Of a stretch of DNA of 64,000 bases, positions 4,199 through 48,394 are shown piece after piece. Positions within the stretch are counted from its first letter, which is position 1. Every line of letters begins with the position of its first letter. The stretch lies in assembly GCA_032622095.1 (NCBI GenBank), contig CP136065.1, positions 63,781,094 to 63,845,093 on the forward strand. Direction: 5' to 3'. Under the pieces are notes generated by a model that saw only the letters and a program-made list of their open reading frames with translations, was not told the origin of the DNA and made no database searches. The stretch is from Siphonodentalium dalli (Eukaryota > Mollusca > Scaphopoda > Gadilida > Siphonodentaliidae). A program made the translations under genes and the position numbers.

Positions 4199-4472
4199 TT
4201 AACCATTCTATGACTGGAGCTTCCTGAAATTTTGCGAAAACCCTGTGCCAATGCTTTCTCTTATATATGGGTGTCTCCCATGGGGAGCCTCGCGTGTATA
4301 AGAGAATTGCACTGGCCTAACAATATTTACCTTGACCTTGTAAGCCAGTGAATTCTCTTATATGCGAGGCCCCCTATGGAAGACTCGCTCATATAAGAGA
4401 CTGCACTGGCACAGGGTCTTTAATGCTACACCAGCGCAGCTCCCGTCATGAATCCCGTCATTAAAGGGTTAA
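4199..4472. mobile_element. TTAA-flanked MITE family A, copy A1
   Basis: It begins at TTAA followed by a slightly decayed CCATTCTATGACTGGAGC and ends ..AAAGGG then TTAA. Termini of this kind (CCCTTT..AAAGGG with TTAA duplicated) are characteristic of piggyBac-type transposons. The interior holds two hairpin cassettes containing GCATTCTCTTATAT and TATATAAGAGA, separated by a linker containing CTAACAATATTTACCTTGAC. Non-autonomous, no coding capacity. Confidence 0.8.
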
Positions 4473-4745
4473 CTCAGGGCCGGGAACATAAACGTCATAA
4501 TTTTCTCGAACATTGCGACAAGTTGTCTCAAATCGAAGTGATGTCTTTATAAATAACTCGACCAAAATACAGCGAATAAGCTATGTATCAATTTTCACCA
4601 ACTCACTGTGAATCGCGTCCCCATATACATATATATCTGTTGAGAAGATATAAGTGTTCAAGTGGCTTGGGTCATAATTTTTCGAGGTTGTGAAATTTGA
4701 ACGCCAGAATCTCATCCAAAACAAATCTGTTTGATACCATTGTTT

Positions 4746-5007
4746 TTAACCCTTTCATGACTGGAACTTCCTGAAATTTTGCGAAAACCCTGTGCCAATG
4801 CATTCTCTTATATATACCAGTCGCCCATAGGGCGCCTCGCATATATAAGAGAATGCATTGGCCTAACAATATTTACCGTGACCTTGTAAGCCATGCATTC
4901 TCTTATATATGCGAGGCTTCCTATGGGAGACTGGCATATTTAAGATAATTCACTGGCGCAGGATCGTTAATGCTGCACCAGCGCAGCTCCAGTCATGAAA
5001 GGGTTAA
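4746..5007. mobile_element. TTAA-flanked MITE family A, copy A2
   Basis: One of the better-preserved copies: TTAA, then CCCTTTCATGACTGGAACTT, and at the other end CTCCAGTCATGAAAGGG then TTAA. Two hairpin cassettes lie inside (about 4795-4862 and 4891-4954), with the family linker between them. It lies ~270 bp from A1 in the same orientation. Confidence 0.88.
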
Positions 5008-5110
5008 GTATCCGAGATGAGTTGTTGGGTAGCTCATTAGTATAACAGCTTGCTGATGTTTCTGGAAAATATAGGGGGAAAACGAATGTTGAAATTACCA
5101 ATCGTGATAT

Positions 5111-5210
5111 CTTGCCGCCATTTTTTAGCAAATTATGACGTATATTCCTGGTCCTGTAATTGTAAACTTTGCTTTGCGAATTCTTTCTATAAGCAGTATT
5201 TTAAAAAATC
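5111..5210 (+). pseudogene. weak candidate: Cys-loop receptor-like exon fragment
   Basis: After an acceptor-like 'ccattttttag', one frame reads PGPVIVNFALRILSISSI. This resembles the N-terminal ligand-binding region of glycine/GABA-type Cys-loop channel subunits, where a G-P-V-x-V stretch is followed by an S-I-S-S-I/L stretch. A neighbouring frame just before it reads LANYDVY, like the preceding family motif, so a frameshift would be needed to join them. The expected downstream motif (M-D-F/Y then R-Q-x-W) is absent. The likeness covers only ~25 residues and could be chance. Confidence 0.2.
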
Positions 5211-5635
5211 CCTCAGAGCTCATCAAAGATGGTCTATCTCTTCCTATAACAAGTTTTATATTGTTTCCTGGGTATACAATAATAAATATGAATCGAAGAC
5301 CCCTGTCCGCAAACACTGCTATCAATTAATATTATTTTATTTCGAATTTTCTGGTATACTTTATACATGCAATCAATTTGGGACAGTTTACCGCTCGCGT
5401 TCGTTTGGAGCGTATCGTGCGGCATAACTCTATCTAAAATTGTATTCTAAAAATAGTAATATGTCCCACTTGATTATCGCATCACATAAGAAAATATCGA
5501 TATAAAATCAATTTTAATTTATAGAAGCGTTTCCGGACAGGTGTATTCGACACATATATATTATTTTATAACCAGGAAACCATGGAAACTATATAAAATA
5601 TGTGCAGGAAGAGATATGCCATCTTTATTATTGCA

Positions 5636-5840
5636 ATAATCAAAGATTGTAGTTTTATTCAAATCATGTATGTCAGCAAAGATTGGTGGTGTTATGAGCT
5701 AACGTGGTATACAATACTTATAGTTTATCCATCTTTCAATCAAAGATTATAGTTTTATGCAAATCATGTAAGTCAGCAAAGAGTTACGGTGTTATGCGCT
5801 GTATAAAGTGGTAGACAGTACTTACTGTTTATCGATTTTT
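5636..5840. repeat. imperfect direct duplication, ~110-bp spacing
   Basis: AATCAAAGATTGTAGTTTTA through GTCAGCAAAGA at about 5638-5680 recurs at about 5748-5785 with a few changes. The sequence following each (GTGTTATG.GCT, then TATAC/TATAAAGTGG and ..AGTACTTA-like) also matches. No gene is seen around it. Confidence 0.75.
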
Positions 5841-6198
5841 CTTTCCAAAATAATAGAGAAGACAATACATCTAGATTTGAAATATAGCTGCAGAGAAATT
5901 AGAATTTTCGTTTCTTAAAGTTGCCTCCGATTTGTCACCATTAGTAAAAATGTTCTAAGTTAATTTGAACCGTACTATCATCAGCATTCGTTTGTCATAA
6001 GCATCGCGCAAAATACAAAAATAATTAATCATTGACAATGCTCTCTATTATATACCGCTGCTGGGCGACCGAAACATGTACGCTCTTTATAATAGATAGT
6101 CATTCAAAACGTGTTAAAACTTCCTCTTTTCATAGTCGATGTTTGGCAACAAAACCTCCTAACAATGGGTCCATGTGTCCGATCTAATTCTTTTTTGG

Positions 6199-6443
6199 TA
6201 TAGCCCTTCCATGATTTTGAAAAAAAACCTGTGACAATGCATTCTCTTATATATGCGAGTCTCACATAGGGGGCCTCAGATATATGTGAGAATACATTGA
6301 ACAATATTTACCTTGACCTTGTAAGCCAGTGCATTCTCTCATATATGGGAGGCTCCCTATTGGACACTCGCATATATAAGAGAATATACTGGCACGGGAT
6401 CTTTAATGTTGCGCCATTGCAGCTCCCGTCATGAAAGGATATA
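6199..6443. mobile_element. MITE family A, copy A3 (degenerate ends)
   Basis: The ends read TATAGCCCTTCCATGA and TCATGAAAGGATATAA. The family CCCTTTCATGA/TCATGAAAGGG termini are recognisable but the flanking TTAA is now TATA-like. Two hairpin cassettes with the standard linker are present, the first with mutated arms. Confidence 0.75.
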
Positions 6444-6830
6444 AGACCTACAGATGGTAGTTTTATTGTGCCAGATCGGACATGGAATCTTTAAAAACAA
6501 CTGCAAATTATGCTGCGCTTCGATCGTCGCGTTTAGTTGTACCTTAAAGATGACCTGTCCGATTTGACACCATAAATCCACCAAGATGTACGTTTTTAAT
6601 ACCAGAAAATAACTATCCCGGACCCATGAGCCCATAAACAGAAGGTTTTGATGGCCAGATATCGACTCTCAAAATAGAAAAGTTTTAGCACGTTTTGAAT
6701 TATTGCCAGCAAGCAAAAATCCAATGATCGTATCTTATAAAGAGCGTCGATGATAACGTCACCTAAAGCAGCATACAATAAAGAGCGTTATCAATTATGA
6801 GCTTATGCAGTGGTCGTTTTCTACGTATAT

Positions 6831-7028
6831 GTCTTGTCACTGAGTCGCGGCCATATTGGATCCATCCATCCCCGTTCCGGTCAAAGTTCTAGAGTAGTAT
6901 TCCATATATGGAATTCGTGAATATTCAAAAGATCCATATATGTAATGCTACTCTAGAACATTGACCTGTAGCACTAACACTGGAACTGGGGTGGGTGGAT
7001 CTATATGGCCGCGACTCAGTGATAAGAC
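6831..7028. repeat. MITE with ~40-bp inverted repeats (family M)
   Basis: The left arm GTCACTGAGTCGCGGCCATA with CCATCCATCCCC is mirrored by GGGGTGGGTGG and TATGGCCGCGACTCAGTGA on the right. The centre holds a second small inverted repeat (TTCTAGAGTAG / CTACTCTAGAA). A compact non-coding palindrome. Confidence 0.85.
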
Positions 7029-7039
7029 GTATTACTTAT

Positions 7040-7575
7040 GGATAATTCGGGAGGGGGGGGGGTGGAAAAAAAGTTTTTTCCGGGCATGTATGCCGGGGTG
7101 GGTGGGTGGACCAACAAACAATTTTTTCCGCAACTCAAAAATATTTTTCCTGCAAGTCTTTTTGACTGTTTTTGCAATCAGTTTGGCTTAAAACACATCT
7201 ATATGTCAATATTAACATAAATGACCAATTTCATGATGATCAGACAAACAGTATAGCCTGTAGCCCATGCTAATGGATGAATTTTGAAATCCAAGATGGC
7301 TGCTGGCAGCCATGTTTTTTTTGGACCGAATGACCCCAAAATGACTTGTTCCTATTTACATGTCAATGTTAACATCCATGACTAATAGTATGAACATAAA
7401 TTCATATACAGCTGTTTACAGTGAATTTCCCCCCACGAATCTCTGTGTTAGTGTTAAACGGGGGGGGGGGGGGGTGTCAAAAATTGGTCGGAAAAAAACT
7501 GCCGAAAACGGAACAAATTTGGACGCGGGGGGTGGGTGGGTCCCAACAAGATTTTTTCTGACTACCCCTGGATAA
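7040..7575. repeat. G-run-rich low-complexity repeat, two related blocks
   Basis: Blocks at about 7048-7150 and 7455-7575 each contain long G runs followed by A/T runs and 'gggtgggtgg'. A related C-rich inverse block lies at 42240-42425. The frames here are compositional artefacts. Confidence 0.6.
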
Positions 7576-7876
7576 TTGTGTATTTTTCCACAATGCCTGT
7601 GCCATACGAATGATACTCATTTGAAGTATATGTCATTTTATTTTTTGCGCGAAAATCTGAAAATTGGCTTTGGAAATTTTGTCAAATTTGATGTCAAAGC
7701 GGACCGGACATTTTTAATTGATTTTAAATCTATTTAAAGCGCGATACACAATAGTTAACTATTCCATGAAACATGAGTGCGTTTGAATTTTAGTTGCATT
7801 ATGTAAGTACTGTTGTATTCATATCCAATATTCGGCTTTCGTATTTGTAATCAATGTCCGTGTTTATCTTTTTCAG

Positions 7877-7979
7877 CTCAAATTAAATTAGAAAAAGACC
7901 GTACATTGATCATCATAGGAATCGTCATCGGTATATTAGTGCTCATCGCAATATTCATCTCCTCTTACTTCCTGGCAAA
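7877..7979 (+). CDS. membrane protein, transmembrane exon (partial gene)
   Basis: A 103-nt exon between acceptor 'tctttttcag' and donor GTGAGT. It begins with the last two bases of a split codon and ends with two bases of the next. The 33 complete codons read QIKLEKDRTL, then a hydrophobic helix of about 20 residues (IIIGIVIGILVLIAIFISS), then YFLA. The next exon supplies a strongly basic stretch, so the topology is type I with the C-terminus inside the cell. This phase-1 entry is common for exons following extracellular modules. No extracellular exon was found in 1-7876, so the ectodomain lies upstream or was missed. The protein family is not identified. The exon itself is well supported by phase and composition. 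Confidence 0.85.
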
Positions 7980-8484
7980 GTGAGTATATCCAAACCAAGT
8001 TTGTCAGTTTCGTGTTCATGGAGCTTAGAGTGAGCAGCCATACGTTGCAAGTAGAGGTTGGGCGACACACGCAGCCAAAATACTTACAAGAAACGCATTT
8101 GTAAAAATGTGAAGCAAAATAATTTGAAACCAAGAACTCTTTATAATGAGATATGCGGAATATGACTGTCTGCGGACAAAAAATCACCAAACAATTTTTG
8201 CAAACTTCAAAAATAAAAGTTCATATTCCTCATGAAGGCTGAAAACACGCGATCATTTGTAATCTGGTCCGTAACATGGTTAGGCAGTTTTCCGCAAACA
8301 ATTAACAATATATAATGTTATCAATACATGTTCAATTGTTCTATATATATTTTACAAGAAGTTGTCTTGACTTGTGTTAAAATGCTATATGACAACAGCC
8401 ACGCGTGGGTGTATTTTGTCAATAAATGTTATATGTTATGTTATGCTAGCCAGATTTCGTTAAATTTCTCAAAATTTCCCTCCT

Positions 8485-8732
8485 TTAACCCTTTGAGTGC
8501 CAGGTCGATTTTTGTATCAACCCATATACCCTGTGCCAATGCATTATCTTATATATGCGAGTCGACCATAGGTCGCCTCGCATATATAAGAGAATGCATT
8601 GGCCTAACAATTTTTATTTTTATTTTAATTTTTTTTTTACAATTTTAATATATTTTATTATATTCTTTAACAGACTTATTGTGTAGTAAGTTTAGGGCCG
8701 ATTAGATCGGCCCCTGGCAATCAAAGGGATAA
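8485..8732. mobile_element. TTAA-type MITE family B, copy B1 (short form)
   Basis: TTAA then CCCTTTGAGTGCCAGG at the left. The right end reads GATCGGCCCCTGGCAATCAAAGGG followed by ATAA (mutated TTAA). One hairpin cassette (about 8535-8605) with the CGACCATAGGTCG tip follows the left end. It lies in the intron after the transmembrane exon. The long right-hand body of full copies (see B2) is missing. Confidence 0.85.
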
Positions 8733-9192
8733 TCACGGGTGTCGGCGTATAATGACGGGAAGTTCTTGCTCCTTTTAGTACGTGTTTTCGACCAGAGTAG
8801 TCGACGTTTCCGACTATAGACGCTTACTAAACATATATAATTCAGAATACCGTGGGCAAGCGTTAACTAGATATTAATTAGCACAACATCCCGACCACTG
8901 ATACGCTGAAAGTCAAATGGTTGCTTTATTATAAAATTCTGAATCGGTCAATCATCTGAAGTTATAAAATTAATGATGGTTATTATTTCCAAACGCCCTT
9001 TTATTAACCCTGTTGTGAAGAGACAATTGTAAACTGGTATCATCCAATGAATTGCAACCAGTTTCTACCATTAATAACCAATATCGATACCATTTAATTG
9101 CTCCATGAACCTTCTTACATGTATAGATAGCATGTCGAATACATGTAAATATCACATATCGTAACCATTTCTATATCAATACTCATTGACAG

Positions 9193-9275
9193 TTCCCATA
9201 GGAAATGTTCAGATAATAAGTTCAACAAACGACCATATGTAGGTCGGTTGTTGAACTTATTATCTGAACATTTCG
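9193..9275. repeat. perfect hairpin (family E, copy 1)
   Basis: GAAATGTTCAGATAATAAG on the left is mirrored exactly by CTTATTATCTGAACATTTC on the right, with TTCAACAAACGACC / GGTCGGTTGTTGAA inside and a short loop. Related copies: 16345-16490, 28905-29005, 61460-61548. Confidence 0.9.
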
Positions 9276-9358
9276 CTGCAATAACTGGGACTCCTTCTGT
9301 ACTTGTATTATATATTGATTGCTTAATTATCCTGTAATCCCAATCAAATGAATAATAG

Positions 9359-9470
9359 GGAACTGAAAGCTTTCCAGTGAATGGCAACAAGCCATATTAC
9401 CGACTAAATCCTGAAGTTACCCATAATTCTGCTGTAGTTAAGGAGTCGATTATTTAGGACATTACTGTAT
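9359..9470. repeat. right half of MITE family F
   Basis: It matches the right arm of the complete copy at 24211-24400 (CCATAATTCTGCTGTAGTTA, ending CATTACTGTA). Its left arm is missing, and family E sequence lies where it would be expected to begin. Confidence 0.75.
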
Positions 9471-9520
9471 ATAAACGGTTAAAATATCCGAAACTAAACC
9501 TTCATTAAACACCATTTAAG

Positions 9521-9665
9521 GAAAAGGCGAGAAGAATTCTACAAGCGAAGGGAAGAAAAGAGGAGATTGGCAAGTTACATTCCAGATGCCATCCGACTCT
9601 TGGATGACACAGATGGTAAAGCACGCCCGAATCCAATAATACCACTCAGGCCGTCAAGACACTCG
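9521..9665 (+). CDS. membrane protein, juxtamembrane exon
   Basis: A 145-nt exon after 'caccatttaag' and before donor GTAAGT. Its first base completes the AAG codon left open by the transmembrane exon. The 48 codons then read KRREEFYKRREEKRRLASYI and continue to a loosely acidic DDTD and PNPIIPLRPSRHS, ending in phase 0. Ten Arg/Lys within ~16 residues directly after the helix is a classic stop-transfer/inner-leaflet signal and confirms the orientation. The exon end is compatible with the phase-0 exon at 13945. Family B1, a hairpin and half of a family F MITE occupy the 1.5-kb intron before it. Confidence 0.85.
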
Positions 9666-9684
9666 GTAAGTTCTCTGGGTGGGA

Positions 9685-9780
9685 CATGTGGTAAAATAGG
9701 CCCAAAATCCAATGATACCACCCAAGCAGCGAAAATACCCTAAACAGAGAGTCAAGACACTGCCAAGTTAACATCGCCGG
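9685..9780 (+). pseudogene. decayed partial duplicate of the juxtamembrane exon
   Basis: Just downstream of the exon's donor, the sequence again reads GGTAAAATAGG, CCAAAATCCAATGATACCAC, and later GTCAAGACACTGCCAAGTTA. This matches the exon's 3' end (GGTAAAGCACG, CCGAATCCAATAATACCACT, GTCAAGACACTCGGTAAGTT) with substitutions and an insertion. The donor is destroyed (GCCAAGTT) and the frame is broken. It looks like an old tandem duplication of the exon 3' border. Confidence 0.65.
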
Positions 9781-10299
9781 CTGAGACTTACATACTTGCT
9801 ACAGGGACATGGCTAGATGGTGTCCACCTTGAAATGTGCAAATGCAGCCCGCCCACCCCTCCTAAACCAGACCAAAAACTCCCAGGTTCACGATATTACA
9901 TTTACATCCTTGGGTTGGAACTTTCCAACTGGTACCTCAAGCTTTCCCATTTTTTTTCGAAATTTTCAACCTGACACCCCACTAATGTTGGAAAATTTCT
10001 AACTGATGGCCATTTCAGACCAATATTTTGAACAAAATTAGAAAATTTGCTAAAGTTTGTCTAAACAACAATTCCCCACTCATTATTGGTTTTAAAATCC
10101 AATCTGTGTAAGATTTCCAACTAATATTACCAGGCATAGATTTCCAACTATTGAAACTTTTGGCCAAAATTGGGTGTGGGTAGAAAACCCCACCCCCTGT
10201 TTCACATCCCTGCTTGTTAGTGGCAGCCTCGTCCATCAGGACGTGCAAAGACCCATCACGTGGATTCCCCATTCACTGTAGGAGAGATAAAGAGAGAAT
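9781..10299. other. intron sequence, no gene seen
   Basis: Several phrases recur loosely ('ttccaact', 'ggaaaattt', 'ccaacta'), suggesting an old repeat. No exon is supported on either strand. Confidence 0.4.
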
Positions 10300-10390
10300 T
10301 TAACCCTTCCATGACTTGAGCTTCATGAAATGTTGCGAAAACCCTGTGCCAATACATTCACCAGCGCAGCTCCCGTCATAAAAGGGTTAA
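10300..10390. mobile_element. MITE family A, internally deleted copy A4
   Basis: Only 91 bp. TTAA + CCCTTCCATGACTTGAGCTT, the first part of the left arm (..GCGAAAACCCTGTGCCAAT), then directly the right terminus CAGCGCAGCTCCCGTCAT..AAAGGG + TTAA. Both hairpin cassettes are gone but both TTAA sites remain. Confidence 0.85.
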
Positions 10391-11546: not shown

Positions 11547-12028
11547 TTAACCCTTTCAGTGCCAGGGGCCGATATCATCGGCCCTAATTTACGGTCTGTA
11601 AAATCGGCCCTAATTTATTTATTTATTTAATTTTGTTTTTTTATAATAATTTTTTTTGGGTATGCTTAAGCATGCTATAGCAAATTTAAAAACAAACTGG
11701 TTAAAACCTTAGGGGCATGTTATAACTCAAAACTATCACCAAGTATTCATAGTAATAATTTTGATGCCCATGAAAAACGTAAGATTCCCTGGCACTAAAC
11801 CTACAAAATAAGTCTGGCACTGAAAGAGAGTAGAATATAAGAACAAATTATTAAAATTGTAAAAAATTGTAAAAAATAATAACAAATGATGAAAAATTGT
11901 TAGGCCAATGCATTCTCTTGTATATGCGAGGCGACCTATGGTCGACTCGCATATATAAGAGAATGCATTGGCACAGCCTAGGGTATATGGATTGATACAA
12001 AAATCGGACTTGGCACTGAAAGGGTTAA
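11547..12028. mobile_element. TTAA-flanked MITE family B, full copy B2
   Basis: TTAA + CCCTTTCAGTGCCAGGGGCC at the left and TTGGCACTGAAAGGG + TTAA at the right, 482 bp in all. Subterminal phrases include ATCGGCCCTAATTTACGGTC and GGTATGCTTAAGCATGCTAT. One hairpin cassette lies near the right end (about 11908-11975, tip CGACCTATGGTCG), followed by CACAGCCTAGGGTATATGG and a 'gatacaaaaatcgga' linker. No open frame of note. Related copies: B1, B3, B4. Confidence 0.92.
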
Positions 12029-12549
12029 TCCAGAATAAGGTGTACATTGTCATGTTCCCCTGGATATCTTCCCACATCCCCATACCAACTAAATCTGTTA
12101 AACTCCAAACTTATACAACACATGACAAAAATAATCATCTTATACGATTGCATTGCTTATTTCGCTTCATATAGTCATGAATAAGCAAACCTTTCCCCAA
12201 GAAAAAGTTGCTTGAGTCAGAGTTTGGGGTGATGGGGGGGGGGGCACCGTGACATATATCTTCTCCTCTAAGCAGCTACACGACACAATGGTAATTGTAT
12301 CGCTTATTTTGTATATGTAGTCATAAAACATCGAGAAATTGTCATACCGGTATGTAGATGATGGTGGTGGGAAGATATCAAAGCCGAGACATCTCTCCCC
12401 ACCCAAACCCTGACTAAACTACTTTACATTCACCTAAAATGTTGATATCTCGATGTTTCAGGAGTATATTTATATAAAGCAAAATAAGCTATAAAGGATA
12501 TACATGTCGGAGCAGGGTTAAAATGAACAAAATAAATTCTTTAAAAATG

Positions 12550-12804
12550 TTACCGGCATTTCAGTACATGGTGCAGCATTAAATATCATGTGCCAGTGTA
12601 TTCTCTTATATACGCGAGTCTCCCATATGGAGCCTCATATATACATGAGAATGCACTGGCTTTCATGGTCAAGGTAAATATTGTTAGGCCAATGCATTCT
12701 CTTATATATGCGAGTCTCCTTACGGGAGACTCGCATATTTAATAAAATAAATTGGCACAGGTTTTTCGCAAAATTTCAGGAAGCTCCAGTCATAGATGTG
12801 TTAA
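12550..12804. mobile_element. MITE family A, copy A5 (left end decayed)
   Basis: The right end is CTCCAGTCATAGATGTG + TTAA. The left terminus is recognisable only by GGTGCAGCATTAA. Two hairpin cassettes (about 12593-12660 and 12690-12757), the first with CAGTG/CACTG stem ends and the second with CAATG stem ends. Confidence 0.75.
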
Positions 12805-12921: not shown

Positions 12922-12925
<4 letters not shown>

Positions 12926-17409: not shown

Positions 17410-17663
17410 TTAGCCCTTTACCCAACAGAACGGCCATGTGCCAATGCATTCTCTTTTTTAGGCCAATGCATTCTCTTATATATGCGAGGCGACCTATGGT
17501 CGACTCGCATATATAAGAGAATGCATGGGCACAGGGCATAACTGTAACTATCACAATGTGGTCAAGGAGCCGGTTCCAATGATATCCATATTTGTATGGT
17601 TCTATTGAGACAGACCGAAGATATTTTAGGCTGTTTTGGCCGATTTGTTGGGTAAAGGGTTAA
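17410..17663. mobile_element. TTAA-type MITE family C carrying the hairpin cassette
   Basis: The left end is TTAG + CCCTTTACCCAACAGAACGG and the right end is CCGATTTGTTGGGTAAAGGG + TTAA. These termini differ from families A and B beyond the shared CCCTTT. The interior contains the same hairpin cassette (about 17461-17528, tip CGACCTATGGTCG) plus a duplicated arm fragment just before it (GTGCCAATGCATTCTC at 17438). Confidence 0.85.
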
Positions 17664-23722: not shown

Positions 23723-24076
23723 ATTTTTTTTGGGTATGCTTAAACATGCTATAGCGAATTTAAAAACAAACTGGATAAAACCTTAGGGGCATGTTATAAC
23801 TCAAAACTATCACCAAGTATTCATAGTAATAATTTTGATGCCCATGAAAAACGTGAGATTCCCTGGCACTAAACCTACAAAATAAGTCTGTTAAAGAATA
23901 TAAGAAACAATTATTAAAATTGTAAAAAATAATAACAAATGATGAAAAATTGTTAGGCCAATGCATTCTCTTATATATGCGAGGCGACCTATGGTCGACT
24001 CGCATATATAAGAGAATGCATTGGCACAGGGTATATGGGTTGATACAAAAATCGGACCTGGCACTGAAAGGGTTAA
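23723..24076. mobile_element. MITE family B, 5'-truncated copy B3
   Basis: Starts inside the element at GGGTATGCTTAAACATGC, then matches B2 and B4 closely (CATGTTATAACTCAAAACTA, CCAAGTATTCATAGTAATAA). It ends with one hairpin cassette (about 23957-24024) and CCTGGCACTGAAAGGG + TTAA. The left terminus is missing. Confidence 0.88.
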
Positions 24077-27020: not shown

Positions 27021-27273
27021 TATAACCGTTTCATGGCGGGAGCTGCGCTGGTGCAGCATTAAGATCCATGTGCCAGTGCATTCTCGTATATATGCGAGTC
27101 TCCCATAGGGAGCCTCGCATATATAAGAGCATTCACTGACTTACAAGATCAAGGCTAGGTAAACGTTGTTAGGCCAAAGCATTCTCTTATATATGCGAGG
27201 CACCCTATCGCGAAAATGTATTGCCACAGGGTTTTCGCAAAATTTCAGGAATCTCCAGTCATGAAATGGCTAA
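27021..27273. mobile_element. MITE family A, copy A6
   Basis: Left CCGTTTCATGGCGGGAGCTG, right AATCTCCAGTCATGAAATGG, with decayed TTAA flanks (TATAA / CTAA). The first hairpin cassette is intact with CAGTG-type ends; the second is truncated. Confidence 0.8.
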
Positions 27274-27354: not shown

Positions 27355-27636
27355 TTAACCCTTTCATGACGGGAGCTGCGCTGGCTCAAACATTAAAAAC
27401 TATGTGCCAATGCATTCTCTTATATATTCGAGTCGACCATAGTTAGCATCGCATATTTAAGAGAATACATTGGCATAAAAAATGTTTTTCATTACATTCT
27501 TTAAAAAACATTTGTGTTTGGCCAATGCATTCTCTTATGTATGTATTTACATATGGTCGACTCGTATATATAAGAGAATGCATTGGTACAGGGTTTTCGC
27601 AAAAAAATCAGGAAGCTCCAGTCATGGAAGTGTTAA
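27355..27636. mobile_element. TTAA-flanked MITE family A, copy A7
   Basis: TTAA + CCCTTTCATGACGGGAGCTG at the left and CTCCAGTCATGGAAGTG + TTAA at the right. Two cassettes are present but their tips carry mutations and the linker is replaced by a T/A-rich stretch. It lies 82 bp from A6 in the same orientation. Confidence 0.82.
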
Positions 27637-28241: not shown

Positions 28242-28424
28242 AAAGTGTAGGTATTCTCTATGTATTACATTAAATCATCATAATGGGTATAATAGAGTTG
28301 ATTGAATTATATATAACAGTATATTGGTGCTGAAATTAAGTTGCAGTATTCATCTGGAAGGGGGTTTTCATGAAAATGAAGCAGACGACAGATAGTAAAA
28401 GTACAGAATGAGTCCCATATGTGA

Positions 28425-28878
28425 CCCGCCATATCAAATCCAGTCGAAAGTCGGGATTTTTTTTACCCTGTGCCAATGCATTCTCTTATATATGCGAGTC
28501 GACCATAGGTCGCCTCGCATATATAAGAGAATGCATTGGCCTAACAATTTTTTACAATTTTAATAATTGTTTTCTTGTATTCTTTAATAATTTCACCCAT
28601 ACAGAGCCGAGCCCCAGACAAACATGAGCAGACGACACTCTTCTATATGCTTCTATAGATGTGTGGGGCTCCCTGCAGGTTAATGAATGTTTTTTTATTT
28701 TATGTCCTAAAAATTGTAAGAAACATTTATTTAAAAAAAATGATAAAAAATTGTTAGGCCAATGCATTCTCTTATATATGCGAGGCGACATATGGTCGAC
28801 TCGCATATATAAGAGAATGCATTGGCACAGGGTAAAAAAATCCCGACTTACGACTGGATTTGATATGGCGGGTCATAT
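28425..28878. mobile_element. long-TIR element family D with two hairpin cassettes
   Basis: Both ends carry TGACCCGCCATATCAAATCC facing inward, followed by AGTCG.AAGTCGGGATTTTT. Each end then enters a complete hairpin cassette (about 28474-28541 and 28761-28827). The middle is ordinary sequence containing GCCGAGCCCCAGACAAACA. The termini differ from families A-C and no CCCTTT/TTAA signature is visible. Target duplication not resolved ('atat' on both sides). Confidence 0.85.
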
Positions 28879-29635: not shown

Positions 29636-30305
29636 GCATTGGCTGCGACACACGTACCACAGTAGCGATGGCATAGTAGGTGTGACAATTTATTATGGTG
29701 GAGTTTGGTGACAATTGGTCCGTCATAATTCTGTGCCATAGCTATCCATGTCGCCCGCTGATTTTCCGCACAATGAGTCGTCTGGACCAATTAACCATTG
29801 CTTGATCTCTACTCATTACGTTTTGCTAAATTGTATTCATGACGATATATATAATTGCACGATAGATCGTCCAGAATTGTGTTCGACCATGGCCTGGTGG
29901 CAATCCTCATTGAATCACATATCATTATTGTGGTACGTTTTTATATGATCTCAATGCATGCATGTTTATCTACTTGTATTAATTTCATTAGTAAGAACAA
30001 TCATGGCTGTTGGGATGGGTTATTCATTAAGTTATCAAGTGGACTTGTGTGTTAGCATGCAAAATATAACACTGCGTGTTGAGTAAAGATCAACATCGAC
30101 AAGACATTCGGGTAGATACATCATTGAGAGATCGACCGTCGCTGGTAGAGCTTGGTAGACTCATTGTGCGAATTTGCAGAGGGCGACATGGACAGCTATG
30201 GCACAGAATTATGACGGACCAATTGTCACCAAACTCCACCATAATTAATTGTCACACCTACTATGCCATCGCTACTGTGGTACGTGTTCCGCAGCCAATT
30301 ATTGG
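29636..30305. mobile_element. long-TIR element family I, complete copy
   Basis: Both ends start TTGGCTGCG and continue for about 125 bp as near-perfect inverted repeats (ACCACAGTAGCGATGGCATA; GGAGTTTGGTGACAATTGGT). The interior (~400 bp) includes 'cacgatagatcgt' and no conserved protein. Frames of ~124 codons here run through the repeat arms and are not genes. A second copy at 43377-45886 is split by an insertion. Confidence 0.9.
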
Positions 30306-30714: not shown

Positions 30715-30923
30715 TTAACCCTTCCATGGTGGGAGCCGCGCTGGTGCGACGTTAAAGATCCCGTGCCAGAACATTCTCTTATATATGCGAGTCTCCCATT
30801 GTGTTAGACCAATGTATTCTCTTATATCAGAGGCTCTCTATATAGGAGACTCGCATATATATTTGAAAGAGAATGCTTTGGCACAGGGTTTCAGGAAGCT
30901 CCATGTAGTCATGGAAGGGTCAT
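30715..30923. mobile_element. MITE family A, copy A8 (rearranged)
   Basis: TTAA + CCCTTCCATGGTGGGAGCCG at the left and GTAGTCATGGAAGGGTCATT at the right. The first cassette is cut after its first arm and joined to the 'gttaga' linker, so only one complete hairpin remains. Confidence 0.8.
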
Positions 30924-36785: not shown

Positions 36786-37630
36786 CAATAATAACCTTCC
36801 AACCCAGGTATGATATTTTAATATTATATAATAATAACCTTCCAACCCAGGTATGATATTTTATTATTATATAATAACCTTCCAACCCAGGTATGATATT
36901 TTATTATTATATAATAATAACCTTCCAACCCAGGTATGATATTTTATTATTATATAATAATAACCTTCCAACCCAGGTATGATATTTTATTATTATATAA
37001 TAACCTTCCAACCCAGGTATGATATTTTATAATTATATAATAACATTCCAACCCAGGTATGATATTTTATTATTACATAATAACCTTCCAACCCGGGTAT
37101 GATATTTTATTATTATATAATAATAACCTTCCAACCCAGGTATGATATTTTATTATTATATAATAACCTTCCAACCCAGGTATGATATTTTATTATTATA
37201 TAATAACCTTCCAACCCAGGTATGATATTTTATTATATAATAATAATCTTCCAACCCAGATATGATATTTTATTATTGTATAATAACCTTCCAATCCAGG
37301 TATGATATTTTATTATTATATAATAACGTTCCAACCCAGGTATGATATTTTATTATTATATAATAACCTTCCAACCCAGGTATGATATTTTATTATTATA
37401 TAGTAACCTTCCAACCCAGGTATGATATTTTATTATTATATAATAATAACCTTCCAACCCAGGTATGATATTTTATTATTATATAACAATAACCTTCCAA
37501 CCCAGGTATGATATTTTATTATTATATAATAATAACCTTCCAACCCAGGTATGATATTTTATTATTATATAATAATAACCTTCCAACCCAGGTATGATAT
37601 TTTATTATTATATAATAATAACCTTCCAAC
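36786..37630. repeat. ~40-bp minisatellite, left part (~20 units)
   Basis: The unit ATAACCTTCCAACCCAGGTA + TGATATTTTATTATTATATA is repeated about 20 times. Units differ mainly by one or two extra 'ATA' steps (37, 40, 43 bp) and a few substitutions. Interrupted by the hAT element at 37631; the array resumes at 39189. Confidence 0.97.
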
Positions 37631-38152
37631 CAGGGATGGGGTAATTGTAATTTGTAATTGCAATTGATTGTAATTAATTACATTTTTTCAAGTAATTGCA
37701 TGTAATTGGTAATTGAGTTTATTCTCAATTACATGTAATTGCAATTGAAATTGGTTAGGATGTAATTGTAATTAGGGTCTAATTTCAATTACTTCAAAAT
37801 CACAGGTACTTGTTTCTTCTCAAAGTTCTCTTTCATGATTCATCCAATGGTTTCTTCAAATGTTTTTTTCCAAATTTCAAAGTGTAAGACTGGTGACTGG
37901 CTATCACTGTCCCAACACTGAGTTTGTATCCACTGTGTCTCAATGGTGAATTCTGTTGACACCTCCTGTTTGTTTGCTTAAGCATTGGTTAACCTTTGAG
38001 GTAGAAGGCTTGTTTTGATAAATACAATGAGAAACCAACTTCAAATAATTGACAATAGATCACTATAATATATCACTCTTATGATCATGTTTCATTATCT
38101 CCATCTGGTATGGTATATATGCTTTGGTAGAAATTCATACCAACCATTGCTA

Positions 38153-39188: not shown

Positions 39189-40122
39189 CTTCCAACCCAG
39201 GTATGATATTTTATTATTATATAATAACCTTCCACCCGGGTATGATATTTTATTATTATATAATAATAACCTTCCAACCCAGGTATGATATTTTATTATT
39301 ATTTAATAACCTTCCAACCCAGGTATGATATTTTATTATTATATAATAACCTTCCAACACAGGTATGATATTTTATTATTATATAATAATAACCTTCCAA
39401 CCCAGGTATGATATTTTATTATTACATAATAACCTTCCAACCCGGGTATGATATTTTATTATTATATAATAATAACCTTCCAACCCAGGTATGATATTTT
39501 ATTATTATATAATAACCTTCCAACCCGGGTATGATATTTTATTATTATATAATAATAACCTTCCATCCCAGGTATGATATTTTATTATTATATAATAACC
39601 TTCCAACCCAGGTATGATATTTTATTATTATATAATAATAACCTTCCAACCCAGGTATGATATTTTATTATTATATAATAACCTTCCAACCCGGGTATAA
39701 TATTTTATTATTATATAATAATAACCTTCCAACCCAGGTATGATATTTTATTATTATATAATAACCTTCCAACCCAGGTATGATATTTTATTATTATATA
39801 ATAACCTTCCAACCCAGGTATGATATTTTATTATTATATAGTAACCTTCCAACCCAGGTATGATATTTTATTATTATATAGTAACCTTCCAACCCAGGTA
39901 TGATATTTTATTATTATATAATAATAACCTTCCAACACAGGTATGATATTTTATTATATAATAATAACCTTCCAACACAGGTATGATATTTTATTATATA
40001 ATAATAACCTTCCAACACAGGTATGATATTTTATTATTATATAATAATAACCTTCCAACACAGGTATGATATTTATTATATAATAATAACCTTCCAACCC
40101 AGGTATGATATTTTATTATTAT
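39189..40122. repeat. ~40-bp minisatellite, right part (~23 units)
   Basis: Continuation of the array at 36786-37630, with the same unit and the same length variants. Blocks of units carry shared variants (CCAACACAGG near 39930-40070; CCAACCCGGG at several places), pointing to local block duplication. Confidence 0.97.
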
Positions 40123-41154
40123 GTAATTCACTCATATTACGATCATCTACATTCTTATTTATTTTAGAGGATATTGATTCCAGGGGCCTGTTTCATGAAG
40201 CAATGTCATAAGATTATCTTAAGATGGACTTAATCTAAGATCTAAGGTGGGTCTTATGATGTAACTTTTCCGTTTCAAGAACGCGTTTCACAAAACAAGA
40301 TTAAGTCCTACTTAAGTAGTAATTTAAGTTCGCGCGCTTTTAGACTGGCTCTCGACAATTTATTACAGCTATGCACAGCAAATGTTGGTTCTGTGTATGT
40401 TATATGCCTAGGTACAGTGTCTGGTGACAGATACTAGGGCGTGTCTTAGAATAATTATGATATTTTAATGCAAGGGCGATAATCAGTATAATGACTGGTG
40501 CATACTTAACTGCACGAGCGCGCTTTTTAACTGTGTTTTCGCGTCAGACCCCATCCACACATATCTGCATGCTTCCAATGCCTATTTTATACAAACGTAA
40601 CGAGCTCAAATATATTATTTCAGTTATTAAAGGGACTTATACATCGTAACTCAGAATGTGAACCTTCACCCATATAACATGCCACAGCGGCGACGCGAGA
40701 CATATGTTCGCTCCTTTCAATGCTGATATTAGGTTTTAATGCATTATACGTCTTTGAAACATCTATAATACCAGGAAACCGAATATGTCGCCACGACGGC
40801 ATACACATACAATACACCACAATGGAAGCACTGAGCTAAACGCTCTTTATTGATTGCCAACATTCATGGAATACTAACACAAAAGGCTCTTTATTTATAT
40901 TGCTATAATGTGAATAGGACTTCATATCGTGCTCCAAATAGACTTATTTCCAATCTGAGACATACTTGTAGAAGCCATAAATAAATGATGTTAATGCCAT
41001 TTGCTCTGGTTCTGTTGACAAATGTGCTAAACGTCTGTTATAATTAACAAACTGCGTATGAACTTCGAATGTACGTTACGTTGAACGACATTCTGCATGT
41101 ATGTTTTAATAAAAACTACTTCTAATAAAGAGCGTTTATAATTAACAACACGTG

Positions 41155-42239: not shown

Positions 42240-42425
42240 AGTAGGCTGAATTTTTTTTCCGCCTCTTGGGTACCCACCACCCCCCTATTTGAAGGAATTT
42301 TTTTTTTCAATTTCATGCGGGGTACCCACCCCCTTTTTACCTCCAAATCCAGCCAAATCACCCCTTATTTGAAGGAAAAAAAATTCCAATTTCATGCAAG
42401 GTACCCACCCACGTTTTACCTAAAA
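42240..42425. repeat. C/T-rich low-complexity repeat
   Basis: 'GGTACCCACC' and 'tatttgaagga' with T-runs repeated three times; related in reverse complement to the G-rich blocks at 7040-7575. Confidence 0.7.
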
Positions 42426-42969
42426 ATCTGTAGTCTCACACCATTTAGGCTTGGTATTTGTTTCAGTTATAAAGTCTGAGAACAGATAAGAATCGTATAA
42501 ACCTGCAGCACCCATTGTTATCATGTTTGTGTTTGTTTATCGATTGATTCATGACTTGTAAACAAGTTATATGAACATTTTACCATATTTCCAATGCTTG
42601 TCTGTAATCACTTTAAATTCAACTGTATCGAAAATATAAAATACAAATTTAGGCAAAACATTTATGCTAAATAGTAATGGACCCACACGATCTTATACCA
42701 TCTGACAACATGGCTTTTAACAGATTGATCAGCATGCATATGGCTTTGATGTGAAATTGTGTCCAAAAAAAAATAAATAAATTTAAACTAAAAAATCAAA
42801 AAAAAATCTGGATGTGGCTTTAAATAGCATTCAATACTTTCTAGCATGATGGGATTTCCATGTTTTGCCTCTTATGCTGTCTGATCAAGTCTAAGGGTGG
42901 ATACACACATGCATGTACATGTAATATATGTAATTATCGTGTATTTGGCGTTTTACATGGATCATACAG

Positions 42970-43092
42970 ACAATGCAATATGTGTCCACTGACAATCCAA
43001 TCATTGCCGACGTGTTGACTGCACTTGGTTCTAGTTCCAATAGACCATTTCCGAGTTACAATAAATTGAAAGCTAGCTCTTCTGTGTTGGAG
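42970..43092 (+). CDS. unidentified exon, companion of 42081
   Basis: A 41-codon exon from acceptor 'ggatcatacag' to donor GTGAGA, phase 0 at both ends. It reads TMQYVSTDNPIIADVLTALG then SSSNRPFPSYNKLKASSSVL E. Complex, uncharged-Ser-rich and clearly unlike background translation. An ATG at 42973 could also make it a first coding exon. The phase does not fit the phase-1 end proposed for 42195, so either an intervening exon exists or the first exon uses another donor. Further exons to the right are obscured by the family I insertion. Product unknown. Confidence 0.55.
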
Positions 43093-43376
43093 GTGAGAAA
43101 CAGACATCACGTTACAGCAATGTAAGGTTCTTTTTGTAAACAGATCGCAGCGAAATGTCATTAACATAATTGTGAAAATAATAGCTACAAAATGCTGATT
43201 TTCCTAAATTTATTACAAATACACATAAGTGACCCACGAAAAAGCACTTTAGACAGTGATTTATTGTGTTGTGTACAATAGATGAATTCCCTGTTTGTCT
43301 TGCAAATAATCAAGTTGTCTGTCGAGGCACAGGTAGCCTATAATTATGTTCCATTATATACATAAATCTCTATTAT

Positions 43377-45886
43377 TGGCTGCGGACACACATACCACAG
43401 TAGCGATGGCATAGTAGGTGTGACAATTTATTATGGTGGAGTTTGGTGACAATTGGTCCGTCATAAGTATGTGCCATAGCTATCCATGTCGCCTGCTGAT
43501 TTTCCGCACAATGAGTCGACTGGACCAATTAACCATTCTTTTCACAAAGGTTGATATCTATTCATTACGTTTTGCTAAATTGTATTCACGACGATATATA
43601 TAATTGCACGATAGATCGTAGGGGCCTATACTATAGAATACAATTTTTGTAATAGCAGGCTTATTTGAGCCGTACAGAAGGTGTCGAGTACTATAGACCA
43701 CTGTAATCTAACAGCGAACTCGATTTCTTGTAAATCACAAAAAGACGGCAAATCGAGTACTATATATCGACAGTACTATCGACCACCGTTCGTTAAACGC
43801 ACATCTAAACATTTGTGATTTTGTCAAGGGAAATTACTCTAATGATATATGCGAATGATATGACAGTGCCTATTTGTGTCAGTTTATGAATGATTTAGTT
43901 GATGAATAAAGGTACATTATGTGTGTGAATGGTTTCCGATACTTGGTTTATTTTGACCACAATTGCGCACGGTGAAAAGTAATTCCTTCGGTATCGCGTG
44001 GAATATACTTACAATTTTCAGATGTTTTATGTTACATGTTTCTTAACGGTTTGTCGAAAAAGGTCGGCAAACACACATATCGGCTGCCTCTCAAATGGCT
44101 ACTTCAACTTGATATAGCAATATTAGCAAGGGTGGAACCTGATTTGTCTAGCTAGCTTTGGGCAGGGACAGCGGCTGAAATATTAGAAGTGGAAACATCT
44201 AGACCTTATAGTTGAAAAGTTTGAGGTACCATGCAGCTGGAAAAATTCAACCCATGATGGGGGGTGCGATGGCTGTTCTCGGACTTGGTATTTTCGACCT
44301 GTGTCAAGGATGGGTGTTCATTTGGAAATTCCATTGTGGACTCCCTCGTCCAGGGTCTCCGGGGAAATCCAACCTCGATTTTAAAACATATATATAACAC
44401 CATCTACTTAAACTATACCTAATTCTCGGTCTATTCCATGTATACCAACTAATCGGATAGATTTAGGTAAACATATGCCATTTGGTTTATAACTAACACG
44501 CACTACTACATTGGCAATGTTAAGAATAAGGGGACTCCTATTTTTTCTAAGAATTCCCTCATGGAACATTATGTGCGACACTATTGGCCAAATTAAATAG
44601 TTTAGACCACAAGGTGAACGCAAACTTCTTGAGCACACAAATGCCATGCGGTTCAAAAAAGTTACATAATGTCATGGTAAATATTTGGGGTCCACTGATT
44701 CTTAACGCAACCTAGCCTGAAATTATCAGTAACTGTTGCAACACGAAATGCCACCACCCCCAGATCCACCGCGTATCCGTGTACCTTCGCACACATATCG
44801 TTTATATATACGTTTTGAGCCCAAGCCCGACAACTGTAACTCTTTAATTCCATTCATAATTAGAATCTGGACCGCTGACATGGCTATCTCCTTTCAACTC
44901 CATTGAGCGTAAACCACCTACAATGGGTTAACAATTGAGATTCCGTGACCGCATTACAAAGAACATGTACCCAGCTAATCGCACTCCCCAGTATACGCAC
45001 GAAGAAGTCGTGATCACGGCGTGACAAATCAATAATGTAGCATATGCAGTTGTAATCTAATAAAGAATTTTTACAAAAATGGTAGTATTGCTGTACTATA
45101 GAACCCGCTTAGCCAGTACTTTATCATTCCGTATTGCGAATTTTTACATATTACAAAGATGTAGCGTTCGAGTACTATGAAAACACGCAAAGATGAAACT
45201 TTCAGGCCCCCTTTTTCTCCACCAAATGCAAAGATTTTCCGGTCAAGTAAATCCCGGTATATAGATGGTTCGCCAAAAAAGATCATATAATTCATTACAT
45301 GTCAATGTATTTTTCATTCAAAGAGTTTTAGGCATATGTTGAGTTTCAATCTACAATGAAAGAAATACACTGATAGAAATGCAGTCCAATACTATAGAAC
45401 ACAAAATATGTATTACAAAATTAGTAAATCACAAATTAACGCTGATATTACAAAAATTGTATTCTATAGTATAGACCCCAGGTGCTAATTACTCGTTGAC
45501 TCGCATATCATTATTGTGGTACGTTTTTTATATGATATCAATGCATCCATGTTTATCTACTTATATTAATTTCATTCGTAAGAACAACCATGGCTGTTGA
45601 GATGGGTTATTCATTAAGTTATCAAGTGGACTTGTGTCTTAGCATGCAAAATATAACACTGCTGTGTTGAGTAAAGATCAACATCGACAAGGCATTCGGG
45701 TATATACATCCTTGGGACTGTCTCTGGTAGAGCTTGGTAGACTCATTGTGCGAATGTGCAGAGGGCGACATGACTTGCTATGGCATATTAATTGTGACAA
45801 CTAATTATCACCAAACTCCACCATAATAAATTGTCACACCTACTATGCCATCGCTACTGGGGTACGTGTGTCCGCAGCCATTCATC
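43377..45886. mobile_element. long-TIR element family I, split copy
   Basis: Left arm 43377-43620 and right arm 45480-45886 match the intact copy at 29636-30305 (GCGATGGCATAGTAGGTGTG; GGACTTGTGT.TTAGCATGCA). The break lies just after the shared 'cacgatagatcgt' and is filled by the element at 43621-45479. A few dozen bases of family I sequence are missing at the junction. Confidence 0.88.
43621..45479. mobile_element. DNA element nested in family I, ~1.86 kb
   Basis: Near-perfect ~34-bp inverted termini: GGGGCCTATACTATAGAATA + CAATTTTTGTAAT at the left, mirrored at the right with GGGGTC. 'Ctatag' phrases recur internally. Frames up to ~80 codons show no transposase motif. Target duplication not identified. 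Confidence 0.82.
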
Positions 45887-46950
45887 TATATTGTATACAT
45901 AAATCTCTCGGCATCTATATTATTTTCATAAATTGTTTATCATGAGTTACTCTTGCAAATTATATAATAAAACTGACATTAAAAAAATGCTTTATAACCT
46001 GACATTCTCCAACATACAGTACTCGTGAAATTTTTTTTACTCACTGACATTTCAACAAGCAAATTATCTGTGTATTGTCGGTGCTCGATTCAAATATTCG
46101 CATATGTCGCCTCAAAATGGTGTAACCATATATATACTAAGTTACCTTTGAATCGATCGAAACAGGAGAGAAACACATAAAGATAACAAACAATTCCGAA
46201 AACAGTGACGGAAACATTCCGATCTCCAGATTGTGTTCGAATGATTCAAATCATGATGAACCATGTTTCTTCGGCAAAAAGATAGAATGAAAAAACTGGC
46301 TTCATGTTGTTATCTTCGGCATCCTTTCTTCGTATGTTTATCGTGTACGGGGCCTGGAGTTTGATTTGGTGTTTACACACCATTTGATAGGGCATACAAT
46401 TGATCATTTATTCAGAATCACGGGATGCATGTCTAAATTACATAAGGGGCGGAAATCACACACCGCAACATTCGCACTTTATGTTTGTCTGTAACAATGA
46501 CTACCGGGCATCAAACAATAGTAATCGGATCCTTTTCCCATACTATAACAGATTTGGTAAAAAAAAGTTGTGGCATTGAATTCACTGGATTTAGATAATA
46601 GTATCTCTACAAATTAATGCCAGATTGGTCGATGTTATGATCTTAATTACATCCCATGTATTAGTTATACATACATGTTTCATGTTACATGCATATATGC
46701 AATGCGGCGTTGATCGAAATGAGACCCTACCTTCCGGTGAGATAACACGCTAATTAACAGCGCACTCTTATGGCCGGCTGGAAGGGAGGTAATAAAGGGC
46801 ACTGATTTATTGTAACCCGGGAATGGTCTATTAAGTCGGAATATAGTTAAACCGCTATCTTAGACCGAGTCGCCAGGCCACTTAAAATATTTGTTCGTGG
46901 GAAAACCCATATGGTGGACGTTCTATTTAAATAATTACCAATCCTCTCAG
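45887..46950. other. non-coding, no gene supported
   Basis: AT-rich sequence between the family I copy and the candidate exon at 46951; nothing recognised. Confidence 0.4.
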
Positions 46951-47040
46951 ATGATCCTCTCTTGATATTCATAGCAGTGGTGGATCAGGATTTCCACCAA
47001 CTTGGGGCTATATGTGATCCCGAAAGCTACCAGGCGGTGT
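46951..47040 (+). CDS. weak exon candidate
   Basis: After 'accaatcctctcag' a frame entered with two bases reads DPLLIFIAVVDQDFHQLGAI then CDPESYQAV. A GTGTGG could be a donor, and the frame stays open to 47213. It would fit a phase-1 exon such as 42195, but no intermediate evidence links them. Could be chance. Confidence 0.2.
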
Positions 47041-47238
47041 GGCTAACTCTGAGCTATTCAACTAAAACATATTATATTGTACCTTTTTCGACATGTGGGT
47101 CTCACGGGGGTATAAATTTAATTTTTCTCTATACACAGTGCCTCATTTGTTATGATGTTGGCTATATTCCGACTCATGTACATTATGTACACATGTATAT
47201 CATATGGTGGTGATGTTGATCAATGTCCCGTTAATGGG

Positions 47239-47643
47239 TTAAAGGTACTCAATCCGATTCGATGGTCCGTATATAATCAGATTCCAACAACAAATGTTTT
47301 GTTAGAAATGCCGCTTCAGTTATCAGAGTCGATTAATTGCCCAAAAATGATGCTAACCACTGCCCGAAACGTGTTATTTATCAACATGCTGTTCGACGAA
47401 ATTTGGCCTTATTGTCAACAGAAAGCCTCTTGATTTTAGAGTTATCCATCTACATCCGCAATTGGTCCTAGTCCGTTGACTCGTCGACTGTTTACTGGGC
47501 CACTCATAATAGATTTCAAAAATCGATATCTAATAACTCTGAACATTGATAGGTGGGTTCCTCGACTCGAATCAAATATTTTTTACCCCCGAACCCAAAT
47601 AAATAGTAATTGAGGGGCGCTTAATCGGATTATGCATCTTTAA
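47239..47643. repeat. dispersed repeat family O, copy 1
   Basis: TTAAAGGTACTCAATCCGAT at the left. The right end ATCGGATTATGCATCTTTAA is roughly its inverse, so this is an ~400-bp inverted-end element. It contains TTCCTCGACTCGAATCAAAT and TTTTAGAGTTATCCATCT. Copies 2 and 3 are at 55395 and 57688; a fragment is at 32680. Confidence 0.82.
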
Positions 47644-47941
47644 TATAATACATCGTGGCTGATAATAGTGTTGTATGGGTAGTAATCGCATTGTCAAGGA
47701 TAACACAATTTTTTTATAATTAAATATCTGCTCGTTAGTCCCGAATTTATAGATCATGCCACGAATCCTCTACTCTGGCTCCGCCCGCGCGTATATATAT
47801 ATATATAGAAAGATCATATTCCACCAGTTCAATACATGCATGGGAAGTTGGGAACTGTTTGATGTTCTGGTGTGGAACTTTATAACATTTAAAAATAACG
47901 CAGTTAAAGTATTATGCCTATATTTCTTTGATATTATATGT

Positions 47942-48394
47942 TTAAACCTTTCCGATCTCATCGGGCCAAATTTACGGTCTGTAAAATCGGCCCTAAAAAA
48001 AAAAAATTGGGGTTGAATTTTTTTTGGGGTATGCTTAAGCATGCTATAGCGAATTAAAAAACAAACTGGTTAAAACCTTAGGGGCATGTTATAACTCAAA
48101 ACTATCACCAAGTATTCATAGTAATAATTTTGATGCCCATGAAAAACGTAAGATTCCCTGGCACTAAACCTACAAAATAAGTCTGGCACTGATAGAGAGT
48201 AGAATATAAGAAAAAATTATTAAAATTGTAAAATATTGTAAAAAATAATAACAAATGATGAACATTTGTTAGGCCAATGCTTTCTCTTATATATGCGAGG
48301 CGACCTATGTGGTCGACTCGCATATATAAGAGAATGCATTGGCACAGGGTAAATGGGTTGATACAAAAATCGGACTTGGCACTGAAAGGGTTAA
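47942..48394. mobile_element. TTAA-flanked MITE family B, copy B4
   Basis: TTAA + ACCTTTCCGATCTCATCGGG at the left (part of the terminus deleted) and TTGGCACTGAAAGGG + TTAA at the right. The body is collinear with B2 and B3. One hairpin cassette (about 48271-48340) has a 2-base extra step in its tip (CGACCTATGTGGTCG). Confidence 0.9.

Follow-up and report, generated by a model that had tools for sequence, protein, structure and literature searches.

A 64-kb stretch of the genome of the scaphopod Siphonodentalium dalli (contig C5:63,781,094-63,845,093 of a 2.23-Gb genome in nine contigs; hereafter the window) holds one 67-nt hairpin in four families of miniature inverted-repeat transposable elements (MITEs), A, B, C, and D, whose ends differ. 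The hairpin is part of a conserved internal block, the core, and the data support that this block is paired with at least four different end pairs and that ends and core assort in several ways. The reading that we favor, at somewhat better than even chances, is that one conserved core was repeatedly combined with different transposon ends and that each founder was then amplified. A MITE family is usually defined by its ends, since these are what the transposase reads. In S. dalli, it is the interior that stays constant and the ends that are variable, a change of target site included.

The core and the ends that carry it

The hairpin is near-perfect (CCAATGCATTCTCTTATATATGCGAG-loop-CTCGCATATATAAGAGAATGCATTGG), with pairing at 31 of 33 symmetric positions, and is predicted to fold into a stem with a single T.C mismatch and an ATA loop. 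For its arm CCAATGCATTCTC, the window contains 18 exact sites, or 30 if up to one mismatch is allowed, and a flank-bearing query detects 21 cassettes there. Genome-wide, the hairpin 13-mer arm is present in 345,344 exact copies (172,780 + 172,564) compared with nine (7 + 2) for a reversed control, and a 34-mer consisting of ACCCTGTG and the arm in 42,618 exact copies compared with none for its control. The predicted DNA folding energy is -33.2 kcal/mol relative to a shuffle mean of -5.4. Together, the 13-mer counts and the folding energy exclude that the abundance of the hairpin is due to chance.

The order within the core is CCCTGTG, hairpin, CCTAACA, and an AT-rich (sometimes minisatellite) spacer; two-sided forms add an inverse second hairpin and CACAGGG. 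Families A, C, and D usually have two inverted core copies. Every family consensus is alike from (C)CCTGTG inward, and this outer homology limit also applies to most copies without arms. A variant core outside A-D (L037:180-475; loci are numbered with the prefix L) has one hairpin and a different but related middle (CCCTATAGGGAGCCCC...), and in L031 and L098 the hairpin and spacer are tandemly repeated inside A elements at ~97-108 bp per unit. Searches of Rfam for RNA families gave no match, and three open reading frames (ORFs) of the window had no match in Pfam. Literal hairpin strings were not found in the text of papers in the literature searched, outside of which most subscription papers lie.

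Families A, B, and C are piggyBac-type (TTAA) MITEs. As in piggyBac-type elements, their termini consist of TTAA followed by CCCTT(T/C), which carries the CC(C/T)T terminal motif, with the terminal inverted repeats (TIRs) CCCTTTCATGAC, CCCTTTSAGTGCC, and CCCTTTACCCAAC. Where both TIR words are exact, TTAA is present on both sides of 17 of 23 C elements, eight of nine B elements, and the single A element. Family D begins with GTGACCCGCCATATC and has TTAA at none of eight elements. A 4-bp ATAT or ATTT repeat flanks six of these eight (shuffle mean 2.9, maximum 6; shuffles also reach six because the flanks are very AT-rich). The D copy in the window, with its changed right end, is outside the eight. 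The C arms are unequal (~20 and ~140 bp), and the left and right arms of A resemble each other.

Exact TIR words number 91,621 for C, 23,232 for B, 20,357 for D, and 18,189 for A genome-wide, where A words also lie within tandem arrays. We defined TIR pairs as neighboring + and - listed places <2.5 kb apart, leaving out the array at C1:750-916 kb and the final ten C places without a partner. The spacing is 355-470 bp in 30 of 32 C pairs and 445-468 bp in 20 of 25 D pairs, and B has two size classes, 223-278 bp (17 of 32 pairs) and 413-493 bp (13 of 32). The A terminal sequence is tandem at C1:3257437-3273395 and 4907345-4923982, mostly in multiples of 37 bp, and in a 33-bp form in L107; it seems that here a MITE end has turned satellite.

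The abundance was also sampled in twenty random 6-kb pieces, two or three per contig and all inside the first 150 Mb of the contig. These hold 22 cassettes, which extrapolates to ~4 x 10^5 hairpins per genome; they carry 36 exact 13-mers against an expectation of 18.6, which marks the sample as clustered and the estimate as rough. The arms of the 22 cassettes belong to C (12), D (2), B (1), and A (1), with none recognized in six. In addition to the window and the random pieces, the material comprises 13 piggyBac loci, three long TIR pairs, 16 test pieces, 60 contig-C1 pieces around cassette words (42 from the first 100 13-mer places, 18 from the first 100 34-mer places), and 16 further 34-mer places without a listed D or B TIR alongside. 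It holds 204 cassette hits. The outer side could be read in 193 of these, which were assigned to classes (A left 18, A right 15, B 33, C long side 31, C short side 31, D 35, none 30), and the other 11 were dropped; the counts are not independent because loci overlap or duplicate (L030/L031/L032, L050/L066, L053/L065, L056/L064, L062/L071/L072, and one side of L075/L101). Cassettes recur every ~11,175 bp at C1 ~842-921 kb, which thus is a large tandem array containing cassettes.

Similarity and exchange between families

The consensus of CCCTGTG and hairpin (74 nt) shows no difference among B, C long, C short, D1, and D2. The A left consensus differs at four positions, equal to two compensatory pairs, and A right at seven. 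The outer arms are dissimilar: no pair from different families is more similar than shuffled sequences (lowest p 0.156). Hence, the interior is more conserved between families than the TIRs. The spacers are alike in several comparisons, in aligned bases 46/58 for B-D1, 38/43 for B-D2, 45/53 for C long-D1, 38/46 for B-C long, and 39/46 for D1-D2 (p ≤ 0.004, dinucleotide shuffles), and more weakly for C long-D2 (p 0.022) and for the first 13 post-hairpin bases of A left relative to B and D (p 0.012-0.026).

A sequence-only reading had proposed that the same palindrome occurs in four MITE families with different ends, and this is borne out: the arms lie where it placed them. Its boundaries for A (4746-5007), B (11547-12028, TTAA on both sides), and C (17410-17663) hold, while D spans 28421-28875 rather than 28425-28878. 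That the ends are unrelated is correct apart from the TTAA and CCCTT(T/C) shared by A, B, and C. It had also let the homology end at the hairpin, which is not the case, as CCCTGTG on the outside and part of the AT-rich spacer on the inside are also common to the families. What remains of the proposed module is one internal block with at least four end pairs; the hairpin alone is not supported as the unit, and the shared block is CCCTGTG-hairpin-spacer, usually present twice in inverted orientation.

Ends and cores also occur in exchanged combinations. Three of the 33 B-armed cassettes run into a D-type core: L077 and L078 have whole B TIRs and an identical inner break point, so perhaps reflect one event, and L108 has only the inner part of the B arm. 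The A ends enclose either an A core (29-bp spacer) or B/C/D-type hairpins with an AT spacer or minisatellite, the latter in L027, L068, and the window copy at 27355-27636. In B, the core spacer ends at TTAA and a B-like TIR (CYCTTTCAGTGCCAGACTT) follows directly, in all six places viewed (L109 and five others) among 326 exact ones. This junction reads as a B element that inserted at the TTAA of the core and was later mobile with the outer left end, and the common B form resembles that TTAA junction after a short deletion. One interior with four kinds of ends, together with the same ends on two interiors, constitutes a set of natural swap experiments on MITE success. For repeat annotation, internal similarity would merge A-D and the TIRs would split them.

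The elements identified in the window are as follows (strand given where assigned):

4199..4472, A-type MITE with two hairpins, right end with a repeated TIR-like stretch (from sequence, TTAA at 4199 and 4469)
4746..5007, A-type MITE, TTAA on both sides, inverted hairpins at 4795-4861 and ~4890-4955
6204..6439, degenerate A-type MITE with two hairpins
8485..8732, + strand, short B-type MITE with one hairpin (8536-8602), right target ATAA
10300..10390, A-type MITE with an internal deletion that leaves a stub of the first hairpin arm
11547..12028, - strand, long B-type MITE flanked by TTAA on both sides, with one hairpin (11905-11971) and an internal B-like TIR next to a core half
12545..12804, degenerate A-type MITE, two hairpins, approximate left end
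17410..17663, - strand, C-type MITE, hairpin 17463-17529 intact, the other shrunk by deletion; TTAA right, TTAG left
23740..24076, - strand, B-type MITE with an intact right end and an intact hairpin (23958-24024); 23740 marks where reading began rather than the left end of the element
27026..27269, degenerate A-type MITE
27355..27636, form A2: A ends, B/C/D-type hairpin loops, AT spacer
28421..28875, D-type element, hairpins 28473-28539 and 28759-28825, 42-bp inverted-repeat outer arms, right end changed
30715..30919, degenerate A-type MITE
48040..48394, - strand, B-type MITE with an intact right end and an intact hairpin (48274-48342); 48040 marks where reading began rather than the left end of the element

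Origin of the combinations

In the favored model, the hairpin is part of a conserved MITE interior that exists with several sets of ends. With A, B, or C ends, the core would be mobilized as a piggyBac-type (TTAA) MITE, and with D ends by another transposase. A new family would arise once the core lies between the ends of another element, and the founder would then be amplified. Two routes can be envisaged. One is nested insertion at TTAA, the reading given above for B. The other is abortive gap repair, i.e., the filling of an excision gap with other sequence; abundant core sequence acting as filler could explain C and D. The constant CCCTGTG limit is more exact than a gap filler requires.

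How the hairpin has changed was approached through pairing and divergence. Thirty-one distinct hairpins (24 A, seven B/C/D) remained of 37 after six identical to others were dropped, and 90.3% of their cells pair. Their covariation score of 0.120 is higher than in any of 500 shuffles and in any slid version (0.017-0.059); the signal derives from pairs 29/39, 30/38, and 4/64. Neither the number of pairs changed on both sides (six, compared with 5.7 in shuffles) nor that of pair types (23, compared with 22.2) is above shuffles in this set. These data show that the palindrome remained a palindrome while changing. The covariation does not indicate by what means, and its reading is limited to the upkeep of the palindrome because the rows are related and the structure was derived from the same rows.

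In part, divergence favors repeated combination. In 35 B/C/D copies, chosen otherwise than by hairpin words, the divergence from consensus is 0.85% for the hairpin, 3.2% for the outer arm, and 2.5% for the spacer (sign-flip p 0.0001 and 0.0014), a difference that may partly stem from subfamily variants in the arms. An earlier comparison was set aside, as most of its copies had been picked by exact hairpin words. Several points weigh against repeated combination. In 11 old A copies, chosen in the same way as the 35, the hairpin is kept no better than its surroundings (hairpins 10.7-10.9%, arms 4.8-8.0%, spacers 8.5%). Moreover, the shuffle comparison reveals no spacer similarity for the C short side or A right. 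The material examined contains no core-free carrier from which the order of events could be read, and a core-free palindromic D has no exact match genome-wide compared with 15,229 core-bearing D ends. The autonomous parent was not found either: the cassette is present in none of the 13 piggyBac loci, in which 1,350 bp on each side of the domain was read. Finally, shared ancestry with replaced ends accounts for much of the same data.

Candidates for a core-free carrier were pursued individually. There are nine places at which two non-C bases come directly after the C long arm, all of which were fetched; contrary to what a core-free C parent would look like, all hold the core or most of it, slightly changed. 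For B and A, deletion has removed the hairpin from a 169-bp B pair (L128) and from the window copy at 10300-10390, and core remnants persist in both. Among pairs from the listed places, no TIR pair has the length expected for a core-free C or D. The odd-length pairs of 233 and 2,406 bp (C), 282 bp (D), and one of 1.4 kb (D) hold the core or half a core (L058, L094, L127, L095); D pairs of 554 bp, 667 bp, and the other 1.4 kb lie outside the sequences read.

The long pairs were rejected as autonomous elements. The 2,406-bp pair (L094) is a C MITE with ~2 kb of filler at TTTAA and a longest open frame of 104 amino acids (aa), and the longest frame of a 1.6-kb B pair (L096) is 121 aa; the one frame scanned in each has no Pfam match. 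The 1.4-kb D pair (L095) has half hairpins and a Bcl-2-like ORF. In this locus (C1:4495940-4497760), D-type ends and half hairpins enclose a 148-aa ORF at 594-1037 with a match to the Bcl-2 family (PF00452, E 1e-10), and another TIR pair of about the same length is located at C1:4549552-4550937.

In the genome, PF13843 has at least 128 matches, with 116 of 649 candidates scored, and many piggyBac-type transposase frames are free of internal stops, with open frames of up to 722 aa. Of the 13 loci, L081 and L084 carry TTAACACGTTGAGTGCCGG at one end, in which 12 of 15 bases after TTAA are B-like. None of the 13 loci showed an A TIR, a C TIR, or a second TIR. A search there for TTAA-flanked inverted repeats gave none at the first stringency and only weak, chance-like pairs at the second, in L091 and L093.

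The strongest rival, to which we assign about one chance in four, is a single old MITE lineage in which A is ancestral, B and C are descendants with fast-diverging arms, the hairpin is the slowest part, and D is a later capture. A is indeed the most diverged family (hairpins at 10.7-10.9% from their own consensus, compared with 0.3-1.8% in B, C, and D), it has TTAA and CCCTT(T/C) in common with B and C, and form A2 joins A ends to a B/C/D core. By eye, CCCTTTCATGAC and CCCTTTCAGTGCC are similar as well (12 of 15 aligned, A right relative to B; but p 0.168). Yet the arms are no more similar between families than shuffles, and B, C, and D have one and the same hairpin. In addition, the C arms are unequal and the D ends are quite different. 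The sequence-only reading had named one family with diverged ends and a shared body as the outcome that would undo the module; a shared body does exist, but D differs from A-C in both ends and target site.

The divergence of the A copies suggests that resident copies decay and that any constraint would act on source copies. Source copies would keep the hairpin intact, perhaps because the hairpin aids amplification, and old resident copies would decay freely. A more specific proposal is that the paired hairpin core acts in cis as an amplifier and does so with unrelated transposases, such that any end pair acquiring the core, TTAA or not, gains a large advantage. The core rather than the ends would then be the unit that multiplied, a selfish interior that switches ends, which would reverse the usual view that ends define the element. 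This we regard as unlikely, at about one in five.

A further possibility, with less in its favor, is that the core is a mobile element of its own, with ends CCCTGTG...CACAGGG and perhaps a TA target, that inserted once in the founder of each carrier family. The outer homology limit at (C)CCTGTG in all family consensuses and most arm-less copies fits this, and so does TA before CCCTGTG in B, in D, and, by eye, in eight of 11 distinct arm-less or variant ends (one of the other three has GA, two are altered). The A and C junctions are not TA. The sequence-only reading had considered a hairpin that moves by itself, and this was not seen. By eye, the 30 of 193 cassettes without a recognized arm are degraded or tandem A, one rearranged C, one damaged B, and arm-less D-type (or related) cores. 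The arm-less cores have both hairpins in L014, L050/L066, L075, and L111 and one hairpin in L013:3570 and L055. All arm-less copies have a D-type interior (related in L037), and by eye no target-site duplication surrounds the four cores with both hairpins. A pattern for the empty site of D has no match. When the flanks of L111 are joined, no continuous site matches them, only the halves separately and a 68-bp repeat belonging to one of the flanks (40 of 1,690 candidates were scored, so that a weak site could escape). L014 may be a D element minus its arms, as AATATG is present near both its ends.

Gene conversion, or template switching at the palindrome, could also have carried the hairpins from family to family separately from the remaining sequence. 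Such a spread would suit the identical hairpin consensus across families with differing spacers and the compensatory changes that maintain the palindrome, but is improbable: in 132 of 142 full hairpins, the T.C mismatch, which gives the hairpin a polarity, has one constant orientation with respect to CCCTGTG, and it is flipped (G/A) in none (orientation set by a query containing both CCCTGTG and mismatch features), the spacer is partly shared too, most A copies retain their own loop, and conversion of resident copies is not seen, because old resident copies decay.

Precedents in other genomes

The sequence-only reading knew of no element class of such a kind, a statement that does not stand in view of the CMITEs described from two corals, Acropora millepora and A. 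palmata. CMITEs are families of TTAA MITEs with different CCCTTT-type TIRs related to piggyBac, in which conservation is higher in an internal region of ~75 bp than in the TIRs (Wang et al. 2010, PMC2872659). They are ~100 bp in size with ~1,600 copies by the authors' estimate, occur in tandem arrays, and include a composite element formed by insertion at TTAA. One element bears the interior of another family, and the authors term the origin of the interior a mystery (PMC2872659). The S. dalli elements are alike in TTAA, CCCTTT-type ends, several TIR families on one conserved interior, tandem arrays, and a TTAA composite. They differ in a core with two inverted hairpins, in an extrapolated ~4 x 10^5 hairpins, and in family D: a TTAA target is a trait of every CMITE family and of A, B, and C, but not of D. 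The terms hairpin, palindrom-, and cruciform are absent from the text of PMC2872659. By description of their interiors, CMITEs are a direct precedent. Relative to PMC2872659, what is new is the paired hairpin, the copy number, a family with other ends and another target, and the swapped combinations.

Two other systems offer partial parallels. The V highly conserved domain of short interspersed elements (SINEs) is present in the MER6 MITE (Luchetti et al. 2019, PMC6887750). As in S. dalli, a conserved domain is common to different mobile elements and spread through amplification of its carriers; there it is a SINE domain in a Mariner-derived MITE, whereas here it is a palindromic core in DNA-transposon MITEs. 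The second system, mPing and mPong, does not consist of TTAA/piggyBac elements. Internal sequence of mPing and mPong has been shown experimentally to raise or lower transposition (Redd et al. 2023, PMC9921582). An effect of internal MITE sequence on transposition is the role proposed for the S. dalli hairpin, although mPing and mPong are not known to have a hairpin module common to families.

Two further features of the window stand apart from the elements listed above. A long inverted repeat at 29638-30299, with 142-bp arms that are 93% complementary and no detected hairpin cassette, is perhaps another MITE-like element. At 36787-37638 and 39189-40127, two AT-rich tandem arrays have a 40-bp unit, CTTCCAACCCAGGTATGATATTTT....

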